From: Succinivibrionaceae bacterium | Lineage (GTDB): Bacteria > Pseudomonadota > Gammaproteobacteria > Enterobacterales > Succinivibrionaceae | Length of the DNA: 34,960 nucleotides | Reading direction: 5' to 3' | NCBI GenBank assembly: GCA_017480795.1 | Contig: JAFURY010000097.1 | Coordinates: 1-34,960, forward strand | Made by a program: the position numbers and the translations under genes | The notes under the pieces: generated by a model | The model's input: the letters and a program-made list of their open reading frames with translations, nothing else | The model's database searches: none | Told to the model about the DNA's origin: nothing | Part shown: in pieces, positions 3,026-15,272 of the stretch | Layout of the letters: each line of letters starts with the position of its first letter | Numbering within the stretch: position 1 is the stretch's first letter

Positions 3026-6000
3026 CTAGTTCATGATGAAGGATGAGAGATCCAGCAGACGGCAGGCGTAGCAGGCCTCGTTGTCGTACCATGCCAGCAG
3101 CTTGAACATTCTAGGACCAAGACCCAGACCGGCCTTGGAGTCGAAGCAGCATACCGCGTTTTCATTGATAAGATCTGATGACACCACAGGATCGGCCAGA
3201 TACCTGATGACCCCCTTCATGGAGTTTTCAGCCTCTCGCGCGACTGCGCCGCAGATCTCCTCGTAGGTGGCGTCGGTCTTCAGGTTCACCGTCAGATCCA
3301 TCAGACACACGTCGGCCACCGGTACGCTCATGGAAATGGCTTCGAATCTGAAATCCGCATCCGGCATAACCAGCTGCAGTCCGTGAGCAACGTCCGAAGC
3401 GTAAGGAATGATGTTCTGGGCGGCGCCGCGACCACGTCTCCAATCTTCAGGGAAAGGACCGTCCACTGTCTTCTGAAGCGAGGAATACGGCAGCACGGCG
3501 GTGGCGGAAGCGGATGCCACGCCGAACTTGCGCTCAAGAACGTCAAGCAGCGGAACCACGCAGTTAAGGGAGCTGGAGCCGCTGGACATCACGTCGGCGC
3601 CGGAATACAGCTTTTCATTGATGCCCATGACGTAGACCGGAGTGTCGTCGTCAGGGGTGGCGGTCATGATCACCTTGATGGCGCCGGCCTTGACGTGAGC
3701 GGCAGCCAGCGTGCGGCTGTTGAACTTTCCGGTAGCCTCGATCACCACCTCGGCGCCGATTTCGGTCCAGTTGATCTCCGACGGGAACTGTCTTGCGGTC
3801 ACGCGGAGAGCGCGGCCGTTGATGACCAGATTGTTGCCGTTGATCTCGATGCGGTGATCGGCAAGGCCATGAACGGAGTCATGAACCAGCAGATAGGCAA
3901 GATATTCGATGCCCTCCCGGGTGACATTGCCCTTGCCGTCTCCGGCCATGACGTCGTTGATGCCGCAGATCTCCACGTCGTTGCGAAGCAGAGCCTCCCG
4001 CAGCAGCATTCTTCCAACCCGGCCGAAACCGTTGATGCCGATGCGGATCTTGGTGCCAGGATGATGACGGTACTGTTTGGTCACCTCAGGATTGGTGTTG
4101 ACGATCTGACGCAGCACCTTGATGGAATGGGCCTTGGTAAGACTCATGAGATCCATGTGCTTGGTGGCGCTCTCGTAAGGCTGGCCGTCCGGCTCGGAGG
4201 AGTCAAGCACCGCCTCCCACAGCATGCCGTAGCCTGGCACCGGCAGGTGGAAGCCGATATCGTAGCGGGATGCGTTGAACAGCACCAGCCAGCGCTCGCC
4301 ACGGTTGGAAATGTCGCCGATATCCAGCGTGAACAGACGGGACTGCGGATTGTTCCAGTCGTCGGCCGTAAGCTGATGGCCGTCGGCGTGATACCACAGA
4401 ACCTGATGCTCCGGCATGATCTTGCCGAAGTAGTTGTCGTCAGGGAGTTTGAGGCTGGTGAAGAGACTGGAGCCCAGACGCAGCCGGATTAGCTTGGCGG
4501 TGAATTTCAGCAGATCCTTGTCGTCGTCCGACAGATCCCAGTTGACCCAGCTGATGCGGTTGTCCTGACAGTAGGCGTTGTTGTTGCCCATCTGGGTGCG
4601 CCCCATTTCGTCTCCGGCCACAATGTGGGGAATGCCCTGGGAAAGCATCAGCGTGGTGAGCATGTTGCGCTTCTGCTGCTCGCGCATGCTGTTGATGCGC
4701 ACGTTGGCGGTTGGCCCCTCCTCGCCGTAGTTGTAGGAAAGGTTCTGGCCGTGGCCGTCCTGGTTGTTCTCGCAGTTGGCCTCGTTGTGACGGTTGTTGT
4801 AGCTCACCACGTCGTGGAGCGTGAAGCCGTCATGATAGCAGATGAAGTTCACCGAGGAATGGATGGAACGGAGAGTTTTCGGATAGAGATCCCGTGAACC
4901 CAGAATTCTGGTGGCGAATTCCGCCATTTTGCCGTCGTCGCCTTTCCAGAAGGATCTGATGGTGTCCCGGTAATGGTCGTTGAGCTCCTTCCAGCTGTTT
5001 GGGAATTGTCCCACGCGGTAGCCGTAGCCGCCGATATCCCACGGCTCGGCGATGAGCAGACATTTTGAAAGGATCGGATCGATGGAAATCACCTTGAAGA
5101 ATGCGGCGTTGGAGGTGTAGCCGTTGGCGCTCTCCTCGCGGGCCAGAGCCGTTGCCAGGTCGAAACGGAAGCCGTCCACCTGCATGGTCTGAGCCCAGTA
5201 ATGAAGCGAGTCGATAACCAGCTTCAGGGTTATCGGATAGTCCACGTTGACGGTGTTGCCGCAGCCTGAGCAGTTGGTGTAGGCGTTGTACATCCGATGC
5301 CCGTTGGCGTTCTTCTCGTACATGTAGAAGTTTTTGTTGTCAAGGCCCCGGAAACTGATGATCGGTCCGCCGAAGCCGCCCTCCGCGGTATGGTTGTACA
5401 CCACGTCCATGATCACGGCGATGCCGGCCTCATGGAGAGTTTTCACCATCTGCTTGAACTCGTTCACGGCGTTGAGAGGATCCGAGGCGTAGGACGGCTC
5501 GGGAGCGAAGAAGTTGATGGTGTTGTAGCCCCAGTAGTTGCACAGCTTCATGTCCACCAGGCGGGATTCGTCCATGTGGGCGTGAACCGGCATAAGCTGC
5601 ACGGCGGTGACGCCCAGACTCTTGAGATGGTCGATCACGGCCGGATGGCACATGCCCAGATAGGTGCCCCGGAGATGCTCGGGGATCTTTTTGTTGAGCT
5701 TGGTGTAGCCCTTCACGTGAAGTTCGTAAATCACGGCGTTGCTTTCGCTGACAGCCGGCTTCTCTACGCCCTCCCAATCGAATTCGTCGTCAATGACCAC
5801 GCTCTTGCTGATGAACTTCTCGTTGTCATTGCAGTAGCGCTCGTAGCTCCATGCCTGGGTCTTGCTGAGCTTGCGGGCGTATGGATCGATTAAAAGCTTG
5901 GTTACGTCAAAGGAGTTTCCCGATGAAGGATTGTTGCTGCCGTTGGTGCGGTAGCCGTAAAACTGCCCCGCCTTGACTCCCTTAACATAGCAGCACCAGT

Positions 6001-6184
6001 ACGGACCGTTGCGTTCGAGAATCCTGAAACGGCAGATTTCGTTCTCCTTATGATCAAAAAGACAGAGATAAACCTCTGTCGCCTCAGGAGAACATACAAT
6101 AAAATTACAACCCTCGCTGTCAAGAGAGGCACCTTGCGGTGCCCCTTTCTTGCTAGGGAGTAACTCAAATTTTTCGTTACTCAC
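3026..6184 (-). CDS. glgX: Glycogen debranching enzyme GlgX fused to a catalytically degenerate GAPDH
   Basis: A single 1052-codon frame. Residues 1-710 are a complete GlgX/isoamylase-type GH13 enzyme, which hydrolyses alpha-1,6 branches of limit dextrin. It has an N-terminal CBM48-like segment, region I DVVYNHT (His265), nucleophile Asp342 in GFRFDLA, acid/base Glu380 in LIAEPWD and Asp452 in CYHDGF, plus the C-terminal beta domain (WLVLFNASRYD), so this part should be active. Residues 712-1052 are a full GAPDH fold starting with the NAD-binding RIGINGFGRVGR and ending WYDNEACYACR. Its catalytic cysteine is Ser871 (SSGSSSLNC against SNASCTTNC) and its catalytic histidine is Leu898, exactly 27 residues apart as in real GAPDH. 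The start is GTG with GGAG upstream. The gene follows glgB by 28 nt and is probably co-transcribed. No frame break is seen, so the domains should be translated together. Confidence 0.93.
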   Translation of the reverse strand: MSNEKFELLPSKKGAPQGASLDSEGCNFIVCSPEATEVYLCLFDHKENEICRFRILERNGPYWCCYVKGVKAGQFYGYRTNGSNNPSSGNSFDVTKLLIDPYARKLSKTQAWSYERYCNDNEKFISKSVVIDDEFDWEGVEKPAVSESNAVIYELHVKGYTKLNKKIPEHLRGTYLGMCHPAVIDHLKSLGVTAVQLMPVHAHMDESRLVDMKLCNYWGYNTINFFAPEPSYASDPLNAVNEFKQMVKTLHEAGIAVIMDVVYNHTAEGGFGGPIISFRGLDNKNFYMYEKNANGHRMYNAYTNCSGCGNTVNVDYPITLKLVIDSLHYWAQTMQVDGFRFDLATALAREESANGYTSNAAFFKVISIDPILSKCLLIAEPWDIGGYGYRVGQFPNSWKELNDHYRDTIRSFWKGDDGKMAEFATRILGSRDLYPKTLRSIHSSVNFICYHDGFTLHDVVSYNNRHNEANCENNQDGHGQNLSYNYGEEGPTANVRINSMREQQKRNMLTTLMLSQGIPHIVAGDEMGRTQMGNNNAYCQDNRISWVNWDLSDDDKDLLKFTAKLIRLRLGSSLFTSLKLPDDNYFGKIMPEHQVLWYHADGHQLTADDWNNPQSRLFTLDIGDISNRGERWLVLFNASRYDIGFHLPVPGYGMLWEAVLDSSEPDGQPYESATKHMDLMSLTKAHSIKVLRQIVNTNPEVTKQYRHHPGTKIRIGINGFGRVGRMLLREALLRNDVEICGINDVMAGDGKGNVTREGIEYLAYLLVHDSVHGLADHRIEINGNNLVINGRALRVTARQFPSEINWTEIGAEVVIEATGKFNSRTLAAAHVKAGAIKVIMTATPDDDTPVYVMGINEKLYSGADVMSSGSSSLNCVVPLLDVLERKFGVASASATAVLPYSSLQKTVDGPFPEDWRRGRGAAQNIIPYASDVAHGLQLVMPDADFRFEAISMSVPVADVCLMDLTVNLKTDATYEEICGAVAREAENSMKGVIRYLADPVVSSDLINENAVCCFDSKAGLGLGPRMFKLLAWYDNEACYACRLLDLSSFIMN
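3029..4051 (-). other. Pseudo-GAPDH module of the GlgX fusion (residues 712-1052)
   Basis: Compared with the intact GapA at 11592-12635, this module keeps the Rossmann glycine motif (GINGFGRVGR), the ATGKF segment, [18 protein letters not shown] and the WYDNE asparagine that contacts nicotinamide. It loses the active-site Cys (Ser871) and His (Leu898). The TGAAKA phosphate loop reads SDVAHG, and the Arg of ISIRVPT is Ser (ISMSVPV). Length (341 versus 347 residues) and shared insertions show a whole domain, not a fragment. NAD(H) binding without dehydrogenase activity is the inference; assembly as a GAPDH-like tetramer, or mixed with GapA, is possible. Confidence 0.85.
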
Positions 6185-6212: not shown

Positions 6213-8396
6213 TTAGTCTTCAACCTTCTTCAGATAAACAGTGCAAAGAGGAGGAAGATTGAAGCAGATGGACTGTGGCTTGCCCTGAGACTCGATGTTC
6301 TCGCTGACAATCACGTCAGGTCCGGTGCCGTAATCGCTTCCCCAGTAGAACTGACTGTCGGTGTTGAAGAAAATATGGTATTTGCCAGGCTCGTGAACGC
6401 CGATGCGATAGCCCTCGCGAGGGGTCGGAGTCATGTTGCTGACGGAGATGACCATGTTGCTGCGCTTCTTGTCGAAACGGACAAGGGCGAAAATGCTTCG
6501 CTGGTAGTCGCCGTAGTCAAGCCACTCGAATCCCTGCTTGTCGTAGTCAGCCTCGTACAGAGCCGGCTCGGACTTGTAGATCTTGTTCAGATCCTGAACA
6601 AGCTTCTTCACGCCCTTGTGCTTGTCGAACTGCTCCAGCCACCACTGCAGCTGTCCGTCATGGTTCCATTCCGCGGTCTGAGCGAACTCGGTGCCCATGA
6701 AGTTCAGTTTCTTGCCAGGATGCGCGTACATGTAGGCGAGATAGGCTCTGAGGTTGGCGGCCTGCTGCCACTCGTCGCCCGGCATCTTGTAAAGCAGGGA
6801 GTGCTTGCCGTGAACCACCTCGTCATGGGAGATGGAGAGGATGAAGTTCTCGTCATAGGCGTAAATCATGGAGAACGTCATCTCGCTGTGATGATACTGG
6901 CGGTAGATCGGATCAAGGCTCATGTACTCCAGAGTGTCGTGCATCCAGCCCATGTTCCACTTGAAGCCGAAGCCCAGGCCGCCCATGAAGGTCGGACGGG
7001 AGACGCCGGCGAAGGCGGTGGACTCCTCGGCGATGGTCATGGCGTGAGGATATCTCTTGTACACCTCCTCGTTGAACCAGCGCAGAAGGCTGATGGCCTC
7101 GTAGTTGTGGTTGCCGCCGTTGATGTTCGGAATCCACTCGCCGTCCTTGCGGGAGTAGTCCCAGTACAGCATTGAGGCCACGGCGTCCACTCTCAGTCCG
7201 TCGATGTGGTAGTAGTCCATCCAGATCAGAGCGCTGGCCACCAGGAACTGTCTTACGGTCTCCCGGCCGAAGTCGTAGATGTAGGAGTTCCAGTCGGGAT
7301 GCCAGCCGCGACGCGGATCCTCGTACTCGTAAAGCGGAGTGCCGTCGAAGCGGGCAAGACCGTGGGAATCGGTCGGGAAGTGGGCAGGCACCCAGTCAAG
7401 GATGATGCCGATACCGGCCTGGTGCAGTTTGTCCACGAAATACTTGAAGTCGTCGGCGGAGCCGAAGCGGCTGGTAGGAGAGAACAGACCCACCGGCTGA
7501 TAGCCCCAGGAGCCGGAGAAAGGATGCTCCATGATCGGCATAAGCTCGACATGGGTGTAGCCCATTTCCTTCACGTACGGAATGAGAAGGTCGGCCATTT
7601 CGCGGTAGCTTGGAGAGTAGCCGTCATTGTTGCGCTTCCAGGAGGCGAAGTGCATTTCATAGATGGAAATCGGCTGCTCCAGCTTGTTGTTCATCTGGCT
7701 CTTGATCCACTCCTCGTCGTTCCACTTGTACTTGGTCTGATCGTAGACCACGGAAGCGAAGGAAGGATACTGCTCTGCGTAGAAGCCTACCGGGTCGGCC
7801 TTGTGAGGCAGACGGTTGCCCAGCGGGTCCTTCAGCTCGTACTTGTAGCGCTCGCCGGCTTTCAGGCCAGGAACGAACAGAACCCAGTGTCCGTCAAGGC
7901 TGCGCTGCATCGGATGACGTCTGCCGTCCCAGAAGTTGAAGTCGCCGATAAGGCTGACGGAGGTGGCCGACGGCGCGTAGACCGCGAACTTTACGCCGGT
8001 AACCTTGGTGCCGTCCACATCCACGGTGACGATGTGGGCGCCGAGAGTCCGATAGAGATTGGCGGCATCCAGCTTCATTTCGGCAAGACCCGCAAAAGCC
8101 TCGTCGTGGAACTGGTAAGGATCCACCACATTGACCACCGCATCCGGATAGGTAACGTCAAGGGAATAATGGAAAGGCTCCTTCAGATCAGGGAATTCGG
8201 CCTCGTAGAGACCCTCCTTGTCGATGCACTCCATCACCTTGATTTCTTTCTGGTTGGCGATGTCCTTGATCGTGACCTTGGATGAATAAGGAAGCCAGGC
8301 GCGCAGAGTGTAGCCGCCCTTTTCATTGTTCTTCACAAGTCCCAGTTCGTCAAAAGGGTTGTTCAGACGCGCCCCCATCAGGCTCTCAATTAACAT
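6213..8396 (-). CDS. glgB: 1,4-alpha-glucan branching enzyme GlgB
   Basis: A 727-residue GH13 branching enzyme (E. coli GlgB has 728), which introduces alpha-1,6 branches into glycogen. It contains two N-terminal CBM48-like beta modules; the second includes VKFAVYAPSATSVSL. The catalytic barrel has nucleophile Asp404 (GLRVDAVAS), acid/base Glu457 (TIAEEST) and SHDEVVHGK, and a C-terminal beta domain follows. The frame opens at a TTG at 8414, but the ATG at 8396 is chosen because AAGGAG lies five bases upstream and the protein then matches family length. It lies between malQ and glgX on the same strand. Synthesis (glgB) and breakdown (glgX, malQ) genes are thus grouped; glgA, glgC and glgP are not in the window. 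Confidence 0.96.
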   Translation of the reverse strand: MLIESLMGARLNNPFDELGLVKNNEKGGYTLRAWLPYSSKVTIKDIANQKEIKVMECIDKEGLYEAEFPDLKEPFHYSLDVTYPDAVVNVVDPYQFHDEAFAGLAEMKLDAANLYRTLGAHIVTVDVDGTKVTGVKFAVYAPSATSVSLIGDFNFWDGRRHPMQRSLDGHWVLFVPGLKAGERYKYELKDPLGNRLPHKADPVGFYAEQYPSFASVVYDQTKYKWNDEEWIKSQMNNKLEQPISIYEMHFASWKRNNDGYSPSYREMADLLIPYVKEMGYTHVELMPIMEHPFSGSWGYQPVGLFSPTSRFGSADDFKYFVDKLHQAGIGIILDWVPAHFPTDSHGLARFDGTPLYEYEDPRRGWHPDWNSYIYDFGRETVRQFLVASALIWMDYYHIDGLRVDAVASMLYWDYSRKDGEWIPNINGGNHNYEAISLLRWFNEEVYKRYPHAMTIAEESTAFAGVSRPTFMGGLGFGFKWNMGWMHDTLEYMSLDPIYRQYHHSEMTFSMIYAYDENFILSISHDEVVHGKHSLLYKMPGDEWQQAANLRAYLAYMYAHPGKKLNFMGTEFAQTAEWNHDGQLQWWLEQFDKHKGVKKLVQDLNKIYKSEPALYEADYDKQGFEWLDYGDYQRSIFALVRFDKKRSNMVISVSNMTPTPREGYRIGVHEPGKYHIFFNTDSQFYWGSDYGTGPDVIVSENIESQGKPQSICFNLPPLCTVYLKKVED

Positions 8397-8470
8397 ATGT
8401 ACTCCTTGTAACAATTCCCCTACCCTGCGGAAGGCAGAATCCCTTGTTTTATTATTGTCAAATCAGTCCG

Positions 8471-8651: not shown

Positions 8652-10880
8652 TTACTTCTGCCTCATCCTTTCGGCGGCCGCGTTTCTGGCCTCGGTCATC
8701 CTGGTGGCAAGACTGTGAAGTTTCTCGTCGCCGAAGATTTCGCTGATGTTCTTGCTCAGCTTTCTTCTCCAGTTTGGATACTCGCTGCTGGTGCCAGGAA
8801 TGTTCACCGGCTTCTCCATCTCGATCCAGTCCTCCAGCTGGGTGCTGAACAGCGCGCAGGAGCCGTTGCACATGTGCAGCTGCATGGCGTGATTCAGATC
8901 GGTGGTCATGCCGCAGTAAAGGGCGTTGCGGTTGACCGAATCCGGAAGAATGTTGTGACCGCCGAGGCTGTCGAGGATCTTCTGCTTGCTCTTGAGCCGG
9001 TCGTCCATGAGGTTGTTCATGATCTCGTCGGTCTTGTAGACTCCGATCTTCCGGCCAAGTTTGAGATCGTCGCAGTGCCAGAAGCCCTTGAGGGTGGCCA
9101 TGTCGTGAGTGGTCAGAGCGCTCATGGCCTGAACCGGATAATCCTTGGTGGAAATGTAGCCGCCGTCCTTCTTCGAGGTTTCGAAGAAGAAGATCTTGTA
9201 GGAGTAGATGCCGCTTTCAGGCAGAAGCTTCTTCATGATTTCAGGAACGGTGCCCAGATCCTCGCCGATGATCATGCACTTGTTGCGGTGGGATTCCAGG
9301 GCGAGAATGCCGATCATGTCCTCCACGCGGTAAAGCAGATAGGCTCCCTTGGCCGCATCGGAGTTGCCGTTCTTGTTAGGCACCCACCACAGGCGGTAAA
9401 GGCTCATGGCGTGGTCGATACGCAGAGATCCGCAGGATTTCATGTTGGAGCGGAACAGATCAATGATCGGCTGATACTGTTGCTTGAACAGCTTGTTCGG
9501 ATCCATTGGTGGCAGCCCCCAGTTCTGACCGTTAGGTCCCAGTGGATCAGGAGGACAGCCGATAGAGGCGCCCGGACAGTAGATTTCGGAATTCGCCCAG
9601 ATTTCGGCCGAGCCCGAGGACACGCCCACAGCCAGGTCGCGATATATGCCCACCGCCATGTCCGCGGCCTTGGCAGCCTGGTTGGCGGCCTCCATCTGCT
9701 CGTCGGCCAGGAACTGCAGATACTTGTAGAAGTACACATCGTCCTCGTGATCCTTGGCCCACTGAGCCACTTCAGGATTCTGGTACTTTCTGTACTTCTC
9801 CTCCCAGTCTTCGGCCGGCCAGCCCCAGGCGTTCTTGCCCTGGGCGTAATAGGAGGCCTGGAGAGCGTCATAGACCGCAATCTGGTTCAGACTGTCCCCG
9901 CCGGCCTCGCAGAAGGCGCGGAAGGCCTTGCCCCGTGCGCTCTTGGTATCCTTGTGCAGTCTGGCGTTCTCATAGATCTTCTTGAGAACCTCAAGCTTGG
10001 CCTGCATCACGCCGGTATAGTTCACATACTCGGTGGCCCTGAGATCCGCAAGCCGCTTCTGGAATTCCGGCGAATCCACCAGCTGCTTCGCCTCCTGGCA
10101 CGCCTCGTACTCCGGAGTCTGTTCCACGTTGATGTAGACCACATTGATCCATCTTCTGGTGGAAGGCGAATAAGGACTAGCCGATTCCGGATTGGCCGGG
10201 AACAGCTCGTGAATAGGATTGAGTCCGACAAAGCCAGCGCCCCAGGATCCGAGCCGTATGATGAGATCCTTCAGATCGCCGAAATCGCCCACGCCCCAGT
10301 TTCTTTCGCTTCTGAGAGTGTAAAGCTGCACGCTAGGGCCCCAGACCTTGCCGCCCTGAGCGATCTTCTCAGGCTTGTAGCACTGCTTCGGAACCACGAT
10401 AAGACGGAGGGTGTTGGACTTCTTGCCGTCAACCTCCAGGGTGACGCGGTGATAGCCCATCGGGATGTCAGGAACGCGAAGAATGAGATTCTTCAGAACA
10501 TAATTGGTTTTGCCGATTTTCTTTTCGTCGGACTTGCTGAAACCGGCGGCGCTGATGGTTCCTTCCTTCACCACCGAATTCTCAAGGGCGACAGTGTAGG
10601 AGAGTTTGCTTTCGGCGGATTTTTCCGGAAGTCTGGCTTTGAGGACGATGTCGTTGTTCTCCTTGACCACCAGCACCGGATCCAGCACCGACTGCCAGTA
10701 CTCCTTGTCCTCTTCCTCGATCTGAGCGGCCAGTTTCTTTTCGTCGTCAACCGCGTAACCCATAGCTTCCAGCACGGCAGCCTTATTCTCGGCCGAAATG
10801 ATCTGCTTCTTTCCTTCCGCATCAATGTAGTCACTGGAAATCTGCTTTCTTTCAGCCAACTGTTCAACAAGTGAAGTCAT
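8652..10880 (-). CDS. malQ: 4-alpha-glucanotransferase (amylomaltase) MalQ
   Basis: A 742-residue GH77 enzyme that transfers maltodextrin chains and releases glucose, in the cytoplasm. The nucleophile Asp489 lies in SLRIDHAMSLYRLWW, the acid/base Glu540 in IIGEDLGTVPE, and the transition-state Asp in ALTTHDMATLKGFW. A long N-terminal domain of about 150 residues before the barrel resembles E. coli MalQ (694 residues). The enlarged frame begins with TTG at 10892; the ATG at 10880 (MTSLVEQLAE) is preferred, although its ribosome-binding site (GGTACG) is weak. It is the first gene of the minus-strand cluster malQ, glgB, glgX-gap. GlgX releases short branches that MalQ can rearrange, so the grouping is functionally coherent. 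Confidence 0.94.
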   Translation of the reverse strand: MTSLVEQLAERKQISSDYIDAEGKKQIISAENKAAVLEAMGYAVDDEKKLAAQIEEEDKEYWQSVLDPVLVVKENNDIVLKARLPEKSAESKLSYTVALENSVVKEGTISAAGFSKSDEKKIGKTNYVLKNLILRVPDIPMGYHRVTLEVDGKKSNTLRLIVVPKQCYKPEKIAQGGKVWGPSVQLYTLRSERNWGVGDFGDLKDLIIRLGSWGAGFVGLNPIHELFPANPESASPYSPSTRRWINVVYINVEQTPEYEACQEAKQLVDSPEFQKRLADLRATEYVNYTGVMQAKLEVLKKIYENARLHKDTKSARGKAFRAFCEAGGDSLNQIAVYDALQASYYAQGKNAWGWPAEDWEEKYRKYQNPEVAQWAKDHEDDVYFYKYLQFLADEQMEAANQAAKAADMAVGIYRDLAVGVSSGSAEIWANSEIYCPGASIGCPPDPLGPNGQNWGLPPMDPNKLFKQQYQPIIDLFRSNMKSCGSLRIDHAMSLYRLWWVPNKNGNSDAAKGAYLLYRVEDMIGILALESHRNKCMIIGEDLGTVPEIMKKLLPESGIYSYKIFFFETSKKDGGYISTKDYPVQAMSALTTHDMATLKGFWHCDDLKLGRKIGVYKTDEIMNNLMDDRLKSKQKILDSLGGHNILPDSVNRNALYCGMTTDLNHAMQLHMCNGSCALFSTQLEDWIEMEKPVNIPGTSSEYPNWRRKLSKNISEIFGDEKLHSLATRMTEARNAAAERMRQK

Positions 10881-10944
10881 AATTCGTACCAAACAAAAAA
10901 AACATCAATACTGCTCAATTGTCGCAAATCGCCACGGTCAAATG

Positions 10945-11570: not shown

Positions 11571-12635
<1,065 letters not shown>

Positions 12636-12773: not shown

Positions 12774-15272
12774 ATGGAAACGAATCAAAGCGACGTGAGG
12801 ATCCCGGACGCCATCAGCATCAGAGGCGCACGGGTTCACAATCTGAAAAATGTGGATGTGGAAATTCCTCTGCACCGGATTGTAGGCATTGCCGGAGTGT
12901 CAGGCTCAGGTAAATCATCCCTGGCGCTGGGCACTGTCTACGCCGAGGGCTCCCGAAGATATCTGGAATCCCTGTCGGCGTACACCAGACGGAGGATGAC
13001 GCAGGCGCGGAAAGCGGCAGTGGACGAGATCCTCCACGTGCCGGCCGCCATAGCTCTTCACCAGCGGCCTGCAAGCGGCGGCATCAGGAGCACCTTCGGC
13101 ACCGGCACCGAACTGCTCAACAGTCTCAGACTCATGTTCTCCCGTCTTGCAAGCCACCGCTGTCCCCGGAATCACCTGGTTCCGCCATCCATCGCCACCG
13201 CGGCTGAACAGCAGATTGTCTGTCCCGAATGCTCCGCCAGGTTCTACGGACCGTCGGCCGAGGAGCTGTCCTTCAACAGCCAGGGAGCATGTACCCGCTG
13301 CCAGGGGACGGGAACCGTGAGAACCGTGGACGAATCAACCCTGGTGCCGGACGAAAGCCTGTCCATCGACCAGGGCGCAGTGCTGCCCTGGCAGACCCTG
13401 ATGTGGTCTCTGATGAAGGACATCGCCCGTGCCATGGGAGTAAGAACCGATGTGCCGTTCTGCCAGCTTACGGCTCGGGAGCGGGAGATCGTCTTTCACG
13501 GTCCTGCGGTAAAAAAGAACATCATCTACCAGAACAAAACAAGCGGCGCCGCCGGAGACATGGATTTCACCTATTTCAATGCCGTCTACACCGTTGAAAA
13601 CGCCCTGTCCAAGGTCAAGGACGAGAAGGGCATGAAACGGGTGGAAAAATTCCTGCGGCAGGAGGTGTGCCCAGAATGCGGCGGCACCCGACTTTCCGCC
13701 CGGGCCAGAGGGCCGATGATCCTGGGCATTGGACTTGATGCGGCCTGCAGGATGACCCTGTCGGAGCTGGATCGGTGGGTGCGGAAGATCCCCGAGTCCA
13801 TGCCACAAGAAATGCGGAAAATGGCCCGGAGCATCGTGGATTCCTTTCTCCCGGCCGCATCAAGACTTCAGGAGCTGGGACTGGGCTATCTGACCCTGGA
13901 CCGCAGCGCTTCCACTCTTTCCACCGGAGAAAGACAGAGGATGCAGCTGGCGCGGGTGGTAAGAAACCGGACCACCGGCGCGCTGTATGTCCTTGACGAG
14001 CCATCAATCGGGCTTCACCCGGCCAATCTTGAGGGTCTTGCGAGAGTAATGGACGATCTGGTATCCGACGGCAACTCGGTGCTGCTGGTGGATCACGACG
14101 TGAATATCCTGAAGCATGCCAGCCATCTGGTGGAACTGGGCCCCGAGGCAGGAGCAAAGGGAGGTCGCCTCATCGCCCAGGGCTCCGTTTCGGATCTCGC
14201 CTCCAATCAGGCTTCTGTTATCGGACCATACCTGAACCGAACCTCCTGCGACTATTCAGAAATCAGCGACGATCCCTTCGAACAGGGCCGAATCGCCCTC
14301 TCAATCCGGCAGATCCATACGGTAAAACCCCTGACGGCAGAATTTCCCAAAGGCAGACTAACCTGCGTCACCGGCGTCTCGGGCTCGGGCAAGACGACTC
14401 TGATCCTGGAATGCCTGGTTCCAGCCCTTGAGGCCGCGCTCAAAGGCTATGATCTCCCGCAGCATGTAACTTCCGTATCGGCGGATGGCATCCGGGAGGT
14501 GAAACTGATAGACGCCTCCCCTATCGGGATCAACGTCAGATCAACCGTGGCCACCTATGCCGATATTCATGACGAGCTCAGGAAGATCTTCGCCAGATCT
14601 CCCGATGCGAAAAAACTCAAGCTGAAGGCAGGCGACTTCTCCTACAATACCGGCAGCCTCAGATGCCGGCAGTGCGACGGTACCGGAAGCATAACTCTGG
14701 ATGTCCAGTTTCTCCCAGACGTCAGCATTCCCTGCCCCGGCTGCAAAGGCCAACGCTATGATCGTCTGGCGCTTGAGATCAGACGAAAGGCCCTGGAACA
14801 GGAAAGGACAATCTCGCTGCCTGAGCTGATGAATCTAAGCATTGACGAGGCGATGGATTTCTGCCGGGACATGCCGGCGGTGTGCAAAAAACTCGAAACT
14901 CTCAGCCAGCTGGGTCTGGGCTATCTGACTCTTGGGGAAGACACGCCGAATCTGTCGGGAGGTGAAGCCCAGCGGCTGAAGCTTGCCGGAGAAATGGATC
15001 GGAGGCAGGAAAGCACCCTGTTCGTGTTCGACGAGCCATCCATCGGCCTTCATCCCAAGGATGTGGAAACTCTGCTGAAAGTATTCAGAAAACTTACGGA
15101 CAATGGCGCCACCGTCGTTGTCATCGAGCATGATCTTGACATTATCCGCCAAGCCGATCACATTATCGACATGGGCCCGCTGGGCGGAGATGAAGGAGGC
15201 AGGATCGTGGCGACAGGAAATGCTACGCAGATCAGGACAAATCCCGACAGCATAACCGGCAGATACCTCTGA
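12774..15272 (+). CDS. UvrA2-like excinuclease-family ABC ATPase lacking the UvrB-binding domain
   Basis: An 832-residue twin-ABC protein of the UvrA family. Both ATPase halves are complete: Walker A GVSGSGKSS (41-49) and GVSGSGKTT, signatures LSTGERQR and LSGGEAQR, and Walker B segments with DEPSIGLHP in each half. Zinc-binding Cys pairs are present (CPEC, CTRC, CPECGG, CRQC, CPGC). Canonical UvrA is about 940 residues; the segment that binds UvrB, normally between Walker A and the first zinc module, is missing around residues 135-150. That is the hallmark of class II UvrA (UvrA2/DrrC-type) proteins linked to damage tolerance or resistance to DNA-intercalating compounds. It is probably not the housekeeping UvrA of this genome. 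It lies between the gapA terminator and a convergent small gene. The start ATG has only a weak GGA site. Confidence 0.88.
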   Translation: METNQSDVRIPDAISIRGARVHNLKNVDVEIPLHRIVGIAGVSGSGKSSLALGTVYAEGSRRYLESLSAYTRRRMTQARKAAVDEILHVPAAIALHQRPASGGIRSTFGTGTELLNSLRLMFSRLASHRCPRNHLVPPSIATAAEQQIVCPECSARFYGPSAEELSFNSQGACTRCQGTGTVRTVDESTLVPDESLSIDQGAVLPWQTLMWSLMKDIARAMGVRTDVPFCQLTAREREIVFHGPAVKKNIIYQNKTSGAAGDMDFTYFNAVYTVENALSKVKDEKGMKRVEKFLRQEVCPECGGTRLSARARGPMILGIGLDAACRMTLSELDRWVRKIPESMPQEMRKMARSIVDSFLPAASRLQELGLGYLTLDRSASTLSTGERQRMQLARVVRNRTTGALYVLDEPSIGLHPANLEGLARVMDDLVSDGNSVLLVDHDVNILKHASHLVELGPEAGAKGGRLIAQGSVSDLASNQASVIGPYLNRTSCDYSEISDDPFEQGRIALSIRQIHTVKPLTAEFPKGRLTCVTGVSGSGKTTLILECLVPALEAALKGYDLPQHVTSVSADGIREVKLIDASPIGINVRSTVATYADIHDELRKIFARSPDAKKLKLKAGDFSYNTGSLRCRQCDGTGSITLDVQFLPDVSIPCPGCKGQRYDRLALEIRRKALEQERTISLPELMNLSIDEAMDFCRDMPAVCKKLETLSQLGLGYLTLGEDTPNLSGGEAQRLKLAGEMDRRQESTLFVFDEPSIGLHPKDVETLLKVFRKLTDNGATVVVIEHDLDIIRQADHIIDMGPLGGDEGGRIVATGNATQIRTNPDSITGRYL

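Follow-up and report, generated by a model that had tools for sequence, protein, structure and literature searches.

GlgX, the glycogen debranching enzyme, is known from several solved structures (7u39, 2wsk, 2vnc), and its known members end near residue 700. Proteins in which GAPDH or GlgX is joined to a further enzyme have been described: in stramenopiles, cercozoans and an apusozoan, an intact TPI is followed by an entire GAPDH (PMC3527533), and NCBIfam has a model for fusions of GlgX with MalQ. We found no description of a GlgX-GAPDH combination in a limited search of the literature that covered few subscription journals, in agreement with a preliminary description of the present DNA, which knew of none either; the literature searched likewise held nothing relevant on bacterial GAPDH pseudoenzymes. 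Here we analyze such a combination in a stretch of 34,960 nucleotides (the window), which is contig C79 of the draft genome of a Succinivibrionaceae bacterium. Unlike the known GlgX members, the window protein continues past residue 700 with a GAPDH module.

A single open frame joins GlgX to a GAPDH-derived module

The fusion gene lies in a glycogen cluster next to a stand-alone gapA gene. The features of the region are as follows.

3026-6184, minus strand: glgX-GAPDH fusion, a single open frame of 1052 amino acids with a GTG start
4058-6184, minus strand: GlgX part (GH13, glycogen debranching), residues 1 to about 700 plus linker, with CBM48 and the catalytic barrel
4030-4120, minus strand: fusion junction and linker QIVNTNPEVTKQYRHHPGTKIRIGINGFGR, in frame and conserved in sister genomes
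3026-4057, minus strand: GAPDH module of the fusion, residues about 710-1052
6213-8414, minus strand: glgB, branching enzyme, 28 bp upstream of the fusion gene
8652-10892, minus strand: malQ, 4-alpha-glucanotransferase, first gene of the glycogen cluster and divergent from gapA
11592-12635, plus strand: gapA, stand-alone and canonical, with NASCTTN and TVHSYT intact; parental paralog of the fused module

Four Pfam domains were found along the frame: CBM_48 (residues 18-103), Alpha-amylase (184-558), Gp_dh_N (713-823) and Gp_dh_C (877-1033), the last two being the GAPDH domains PF00044 (93.7 bits) and PF02800 (140.5 bits). The NCBIfam GlgX model TIGR02100 matched residues 14-675 with 818.7 bits against a cut-off of 640.9, and the GH13 catalytic residues Asp342, Glu380 and Asp452 are present, within the motifs GFRFDL, AEPWD and YHDGF. 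The first half of the protein is an ordinary GlgX and a predicted debranching enzyme. The GAPDH-I model TIGR01534 matched the GAPDH part over its full length, with 269.0 bits against a cut-off of 367.2, as expected of a diverged copy. The GAPDH catalytic pair has been replaced, Cys149 by Ser871 and His176 by Leu898, and the phosphate sites have changed as well (Arg231 to Ser, Thr208-Gly209 to Ser-Asp, Thr179 to Ser), while the Rossmann GxGxxG motif, Asn31-Asp32 and Asn313 are retained. Judged by its sequence, the second half lacks what defines a phosphorylating GAPDH and is, in the window species, a GAPDH-derived pseudoenzyme domain. A GAPDH fold was predicted for the module (mean pLDDT 80, from an alignment of n=5 GAPDH-family sequences), with Z of about 40 against GAPDH structures; the S-loop is poorly ordered and of low confidence in the predicted monomer.

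The preliminary description had read this locus as one frame encoding a complete GlgX, with its three catalytic residues, followed by a full-length GAPDH. The frame, Pfam and NCBIfam bear this out, and Ser871 and Leu898 lie exactly where it had placed them, at the positions of Cys149 and His176 with 27-residue spacing. It did not see the gapA paralog (11592-12635), nor that another species (G001, see below) has a fused module with its catalytic residues intact.

The glgB and fusion genes probably form one operon. On the other side of gapA, the window encodes a UvrA-like protein of 832 amino acids (12774-15272, plus strand), which scored 725 bits against the UvrA cut-off of 729.8. Its NCBIfam match starts at residue 146, corresponding to profile position 251, suggesting that about 100 residues are missing near the UvrB-binding region, as in UvrA2-type proteins.

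Distribution of the fusion

All five genomes of the genus of the window species (g1) have the fusion, four of them as an intact frame; in the fifth, a break between contigs divides it at the junction. G001, G003 and G004 carry it uninterrupted, with lengths of 1053-1080 residues. The divided gene is that of G002, where the ends of two contigs meet at residue 690 and the frame continues from one part into the other. G003 and G004 share the in-frame junction of the window protein (QIV..NPEVTKQYRHHPGTKIRIGINGFGR), and G001 has a homologous one. A stop hidden between residues 690 and 715, a danger that the preliminary description had pointed out, is excluded by the occurrence of the same junction in independent genomes; its other concern, that the fusion might be absent from every related genome, is answered by its presence throughout g1 and in a sister genus, g10. 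Among the 57 genomes and 14 genera of our family survey, the g10 genome G013 was the sole further one with the fusion, a protein of 1057 residues that is more decayed. The matching glgX was not found in the assembly of a second g10 genome, which is 77% complete.

In the other family genera examined, GlgX ends in short, unrelated C-terminal tails. Those in g5, g6, g8 and g11 (L011-L018, L030) are unrelated stretches of about 50-100 residues, often rich in Lys/Arg. We also searched 395 genomes of the order and 398 of the phylum, a set with about 700 genomes from outside the family, scoring the best-ranked candidates per genome, and among the matches listed no GlgX ran into GAPDH outside g1 and g10. 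A scan of genome contigs for the module returned only ordinary distant GAPDHs, from a set that may not include its near relatives.

Origin of the fused module

A tree was built from 37 GAPDHs, leaving out the G013 module with its extremely long branch. The fused modules formed one clade (100/96) that was sister to the gapA of g1 (96/87), and the pair was joined within the family (98/92). The fused module and the g1 gapA have in common an 11-residue insert after the IND motif; among the genera aligned, no other gapA carries it. The GlgX halves of all six fusions also formed one clade (100/99), in which G013 branched first, followed by G001, G004, the window genome (G000) and then G002 with G003. 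The module tree gave this order within g1 too, and the gapA tree, in which one node is weak, agrees. Taken together, the matching trees and the common insert make one fusion event the best explanation, in which a local gapA duplicate became attached to glgX before the divergence of g1 and g10; the fusion is apparently of single origin. The G013 module is without the insert. This may be a later loss, which is possible in a module so strongly reshaped, and it leaves some doubt about the place of the G013 module. A horizontal origin from a distant GAPDH was also considered and was rejected because the module groups with the g1 gapA and carries its insert.

A canonical gapA is also present as a gene of its own in every g1 genome. 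Across the family genomes examined, gapA adjoins malQ-glgB-glgX, suggesting that gapA and glgX were neighbors from the start, and the association of gapA with the glycogen genes is older than the fusion. The two are also adjacent in one neighboring family (G046), where gapA is convergent to glgX. In G001 (L055 7580-10822; L096) the fusion gene is on a contig other than that of gapA-malQ-glgB and a different gene comes after glgB; in this species the fusion gene has apparently moved out of the glycogen cluster.

Catalytic residues were lost at least twice, and the dead module is under selection

We scored retention over 154 columns that are invariant in 32 canonical GapAs. The lists of NAD, catalytic, anion-binding and S-loop sites follow what we take to be the established GAPDH numbering. 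The G001 module keeps 10 of 10 catalytic and anion-binding residues, including Cys149, His176, Thr208, Gly209 and Arg231, with Thr179 kept too, and 93 of the 110 other invariant columns. At the positions of Cys149 and His176, the window, G002 and G003 modules have Ser and Leu and the G004 module has Ser and Gln. These four genomes make up what we call the dead clade, all with Ser-Asp at Thr208-Gly209 and with Ser or Thr at Arg231. The G013 module has lost all 10 catalytic and anion-binding residues, keeps 6 of the 14 NAD-site columns and has its S-loop replaced by an Ala/Glu/Lys-rich stretch. Because G001 lies inside g1 and is intact, and G013 lies outside g1 and is dead, catalysis was lost at least two times after the fusion. 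The whole active site of G001 also means that the module is not intrinsically dead, and that the fusion originally combined GlgX with a GAPDH that looks active. The earlier claim of a pseudoenzyme thus holds for the window species, where catalytic residues are lost and the module is under selection, but not as a general statement.

Both g10 genomes (G013, loci L053 and L075; G023, locus L074), which are incomplete, are without the canonical gapA of the rest of the family and have instead a distant GAPDH with Cys and His intact. This distant enzyme is about 30% identical to the fused module.

In pairwise comparisons within the dead clade, pN was 0.10-0.18 and pS was 0.61-0.83, with silent sites near or past saturation. 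Where dN/dS could be computed, it was 0.07-0.17 for the dead module, 0.03-0.09 for the GlgX half (G002 left out) and 0.01-0.04 for gapA of the same genomes, values that are rough at such dS. No stop or frameshift was found in any copy of the fused module. That amino-acid change is far below silent change shows that the dead module is under purifying selection, looser than that on gapA. The GAPDH tree also shows a much higher rate of evolution for the fused module than for GapA, and the stem branch to the dead clade is about 2 changes per site.

The S-loop packs against the neighboring subunit in GAPDH tetramers. Residues kept in all four dead modules amounted to 11 of 14 at the NAD site, 3 of 10 at catalytic and anion-binding sites, 13 of 20 in the S-loop and 54 of 110 elsewhere. 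The excess at the NAD site is marginal (p = 0.035 against catalytic sites, p = 0.048 against the rest), and retention in the S-loop was not significantly higher than in the rest (p = 0.23).

Possible roles of the module

In the explanation that we favor, and as the trees support, a gapA copy was fused onto the 3' end of glgX, in frame, in the ancestor of the two sister genera, inside a glycogen cluster that already held gapA. The module began as a catalytically intact GAPDH, as the residues of G001 still show, and the window's clade and, separately, the sister genus lost the catalytic and phosphate-binding residues with the frame kept. Through the dead module, the debranching enzyme would assemble into homo-oligomers or into hetero-tetramers with GapA, and debranching would thereby be tied to the glycolytic enzyme or to the NAD(H) state.

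For the dead clade, we put at about 0.45 the probability that the module is a non-catalytic, NAD(H)-binding oligomerization or regulatory module, a function that we infer from purifying selection together with the kept Rossmann NAD pocket, Asn313 and most of the S-loop. Solved structures of a GAPDH Cys149Ala mutant with NAD+ (1npt) and of an E. coli/rat GAPDH heterotetramer (2vyn) make NAD(H) binding and oligomerization reasonable by analogy. The preliminary description had proposed an NAD(H) sensor, a scaffold or a partner of GapA, and in the window's clade each of these would be plausible. For the lineage as a whole an NAD(H) sensor is doubtful, given the few NAD-site residues left in the sister genus; with S-loop and NAD site largely gone in g10, neither NAD binding nor assembly appears to be conserved across all fusions. 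More specifically, and in our view rather improbably, the pseudo-GAPDH might form an assembly with the cell's GapA and NAD(H) through which GapA is physically linked to debranching or sets it allosterically. In that case g1 would hold an active, ancestor-like state and a pseudoenzyme state of one fusion. The collapse of NAD site and S-loop in g10, where canonical GapA is gone, is what a GapA partnership would predict, in a single case and with incomplete genomes.

It is possible, though we think it somewhat unlikely, that the module is a passive structural appendage that stabilizes, solubilizes or spaces GlgX or contacts glycogen, and has no nucleotide or GapA role. Selection would then keep the fold because misfolding would harm the debranching half, which fits fast divergence combined with low dN/dS. 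The unrelated GlgX tails of g5, g6, g8 and g11 suggest that appendages are tolerated there, and in the sister genus the frame is kept, with an EA-rich stretch in place of the module's middle part. However, the Rossmann motif, Asn31-Asp32 and Asn313 are kept in four of four dead modules while catalytic residues go, which speaks against a passive appendage.

A bifunctional origin, in which an active GAPDH was placed at a glycogen enzyme and is now slowly decaying without present function, agrees with the full active site of G001 and with the graded decay from G001 through G004, G002, G003 and G000 to G013. It strikes us as distinctly unlikely, since pN is far below pS in the dead clade at saturated dS and neither stop nor frameshift has appeared; moreover, the GapA and GlgX steps are not adjacent, so that substrate channeling is not obvious. 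That an assembly or sequencing artefact joined two genes might be suspected of a draft genome that is 75% complete and in 176 contigs, but this has virtually no chance of being right and was rejected, since six genomes carry the fusion, its junction recurs in frame in independent genomes of other species, and the GlgX and module trees match.

Comparison with known systems

The fusions form a natural series: an apparently active bifunctional enzyme in G001, a pseudoenzyme maintained by selection in the window's clade, and a heavily reshaped remnant in g10. With an active paralog next door as a built-in control, why a dead enzyme domain is kept becomes directly testable, and the series allows us to ask whether a pseudo-GAPDH can wire glycogen breakdown to glycolysis.

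The likeness to GlgX (TIGR02100) lies in the complete N-terminal 700 residues, the catalytic triad and the malQ-glgB-glgX neighborhood. With type I GapA (TIGR01534; E. coli 1gad/1s7c) the module shares the fold of the N- and C-domains, NAD-site residues and a largely kept S-loop; it differs, in the window's clade, in being without Cys149, His176, Thr179, Thr208, Gly209 and Arg231 and in being fused to GlgX. The bifunctional GlgX-MalQ protein (PRK14510) is similar in that GlgX carries an extra C-terminal enzyme of glycogen metabolism, but there the partner is a glucanotransferase, whereas in the window fusion it is a GAPDH. The TPI-GAPDH fusion (PMC3527533) likewise has GAPDH in frame at the C-terminus of another enzyme of sugar metabolism; unlike the fusion described here, it is eukaryotic and mitochondrial, and its partner is the preceding glycolytic step.
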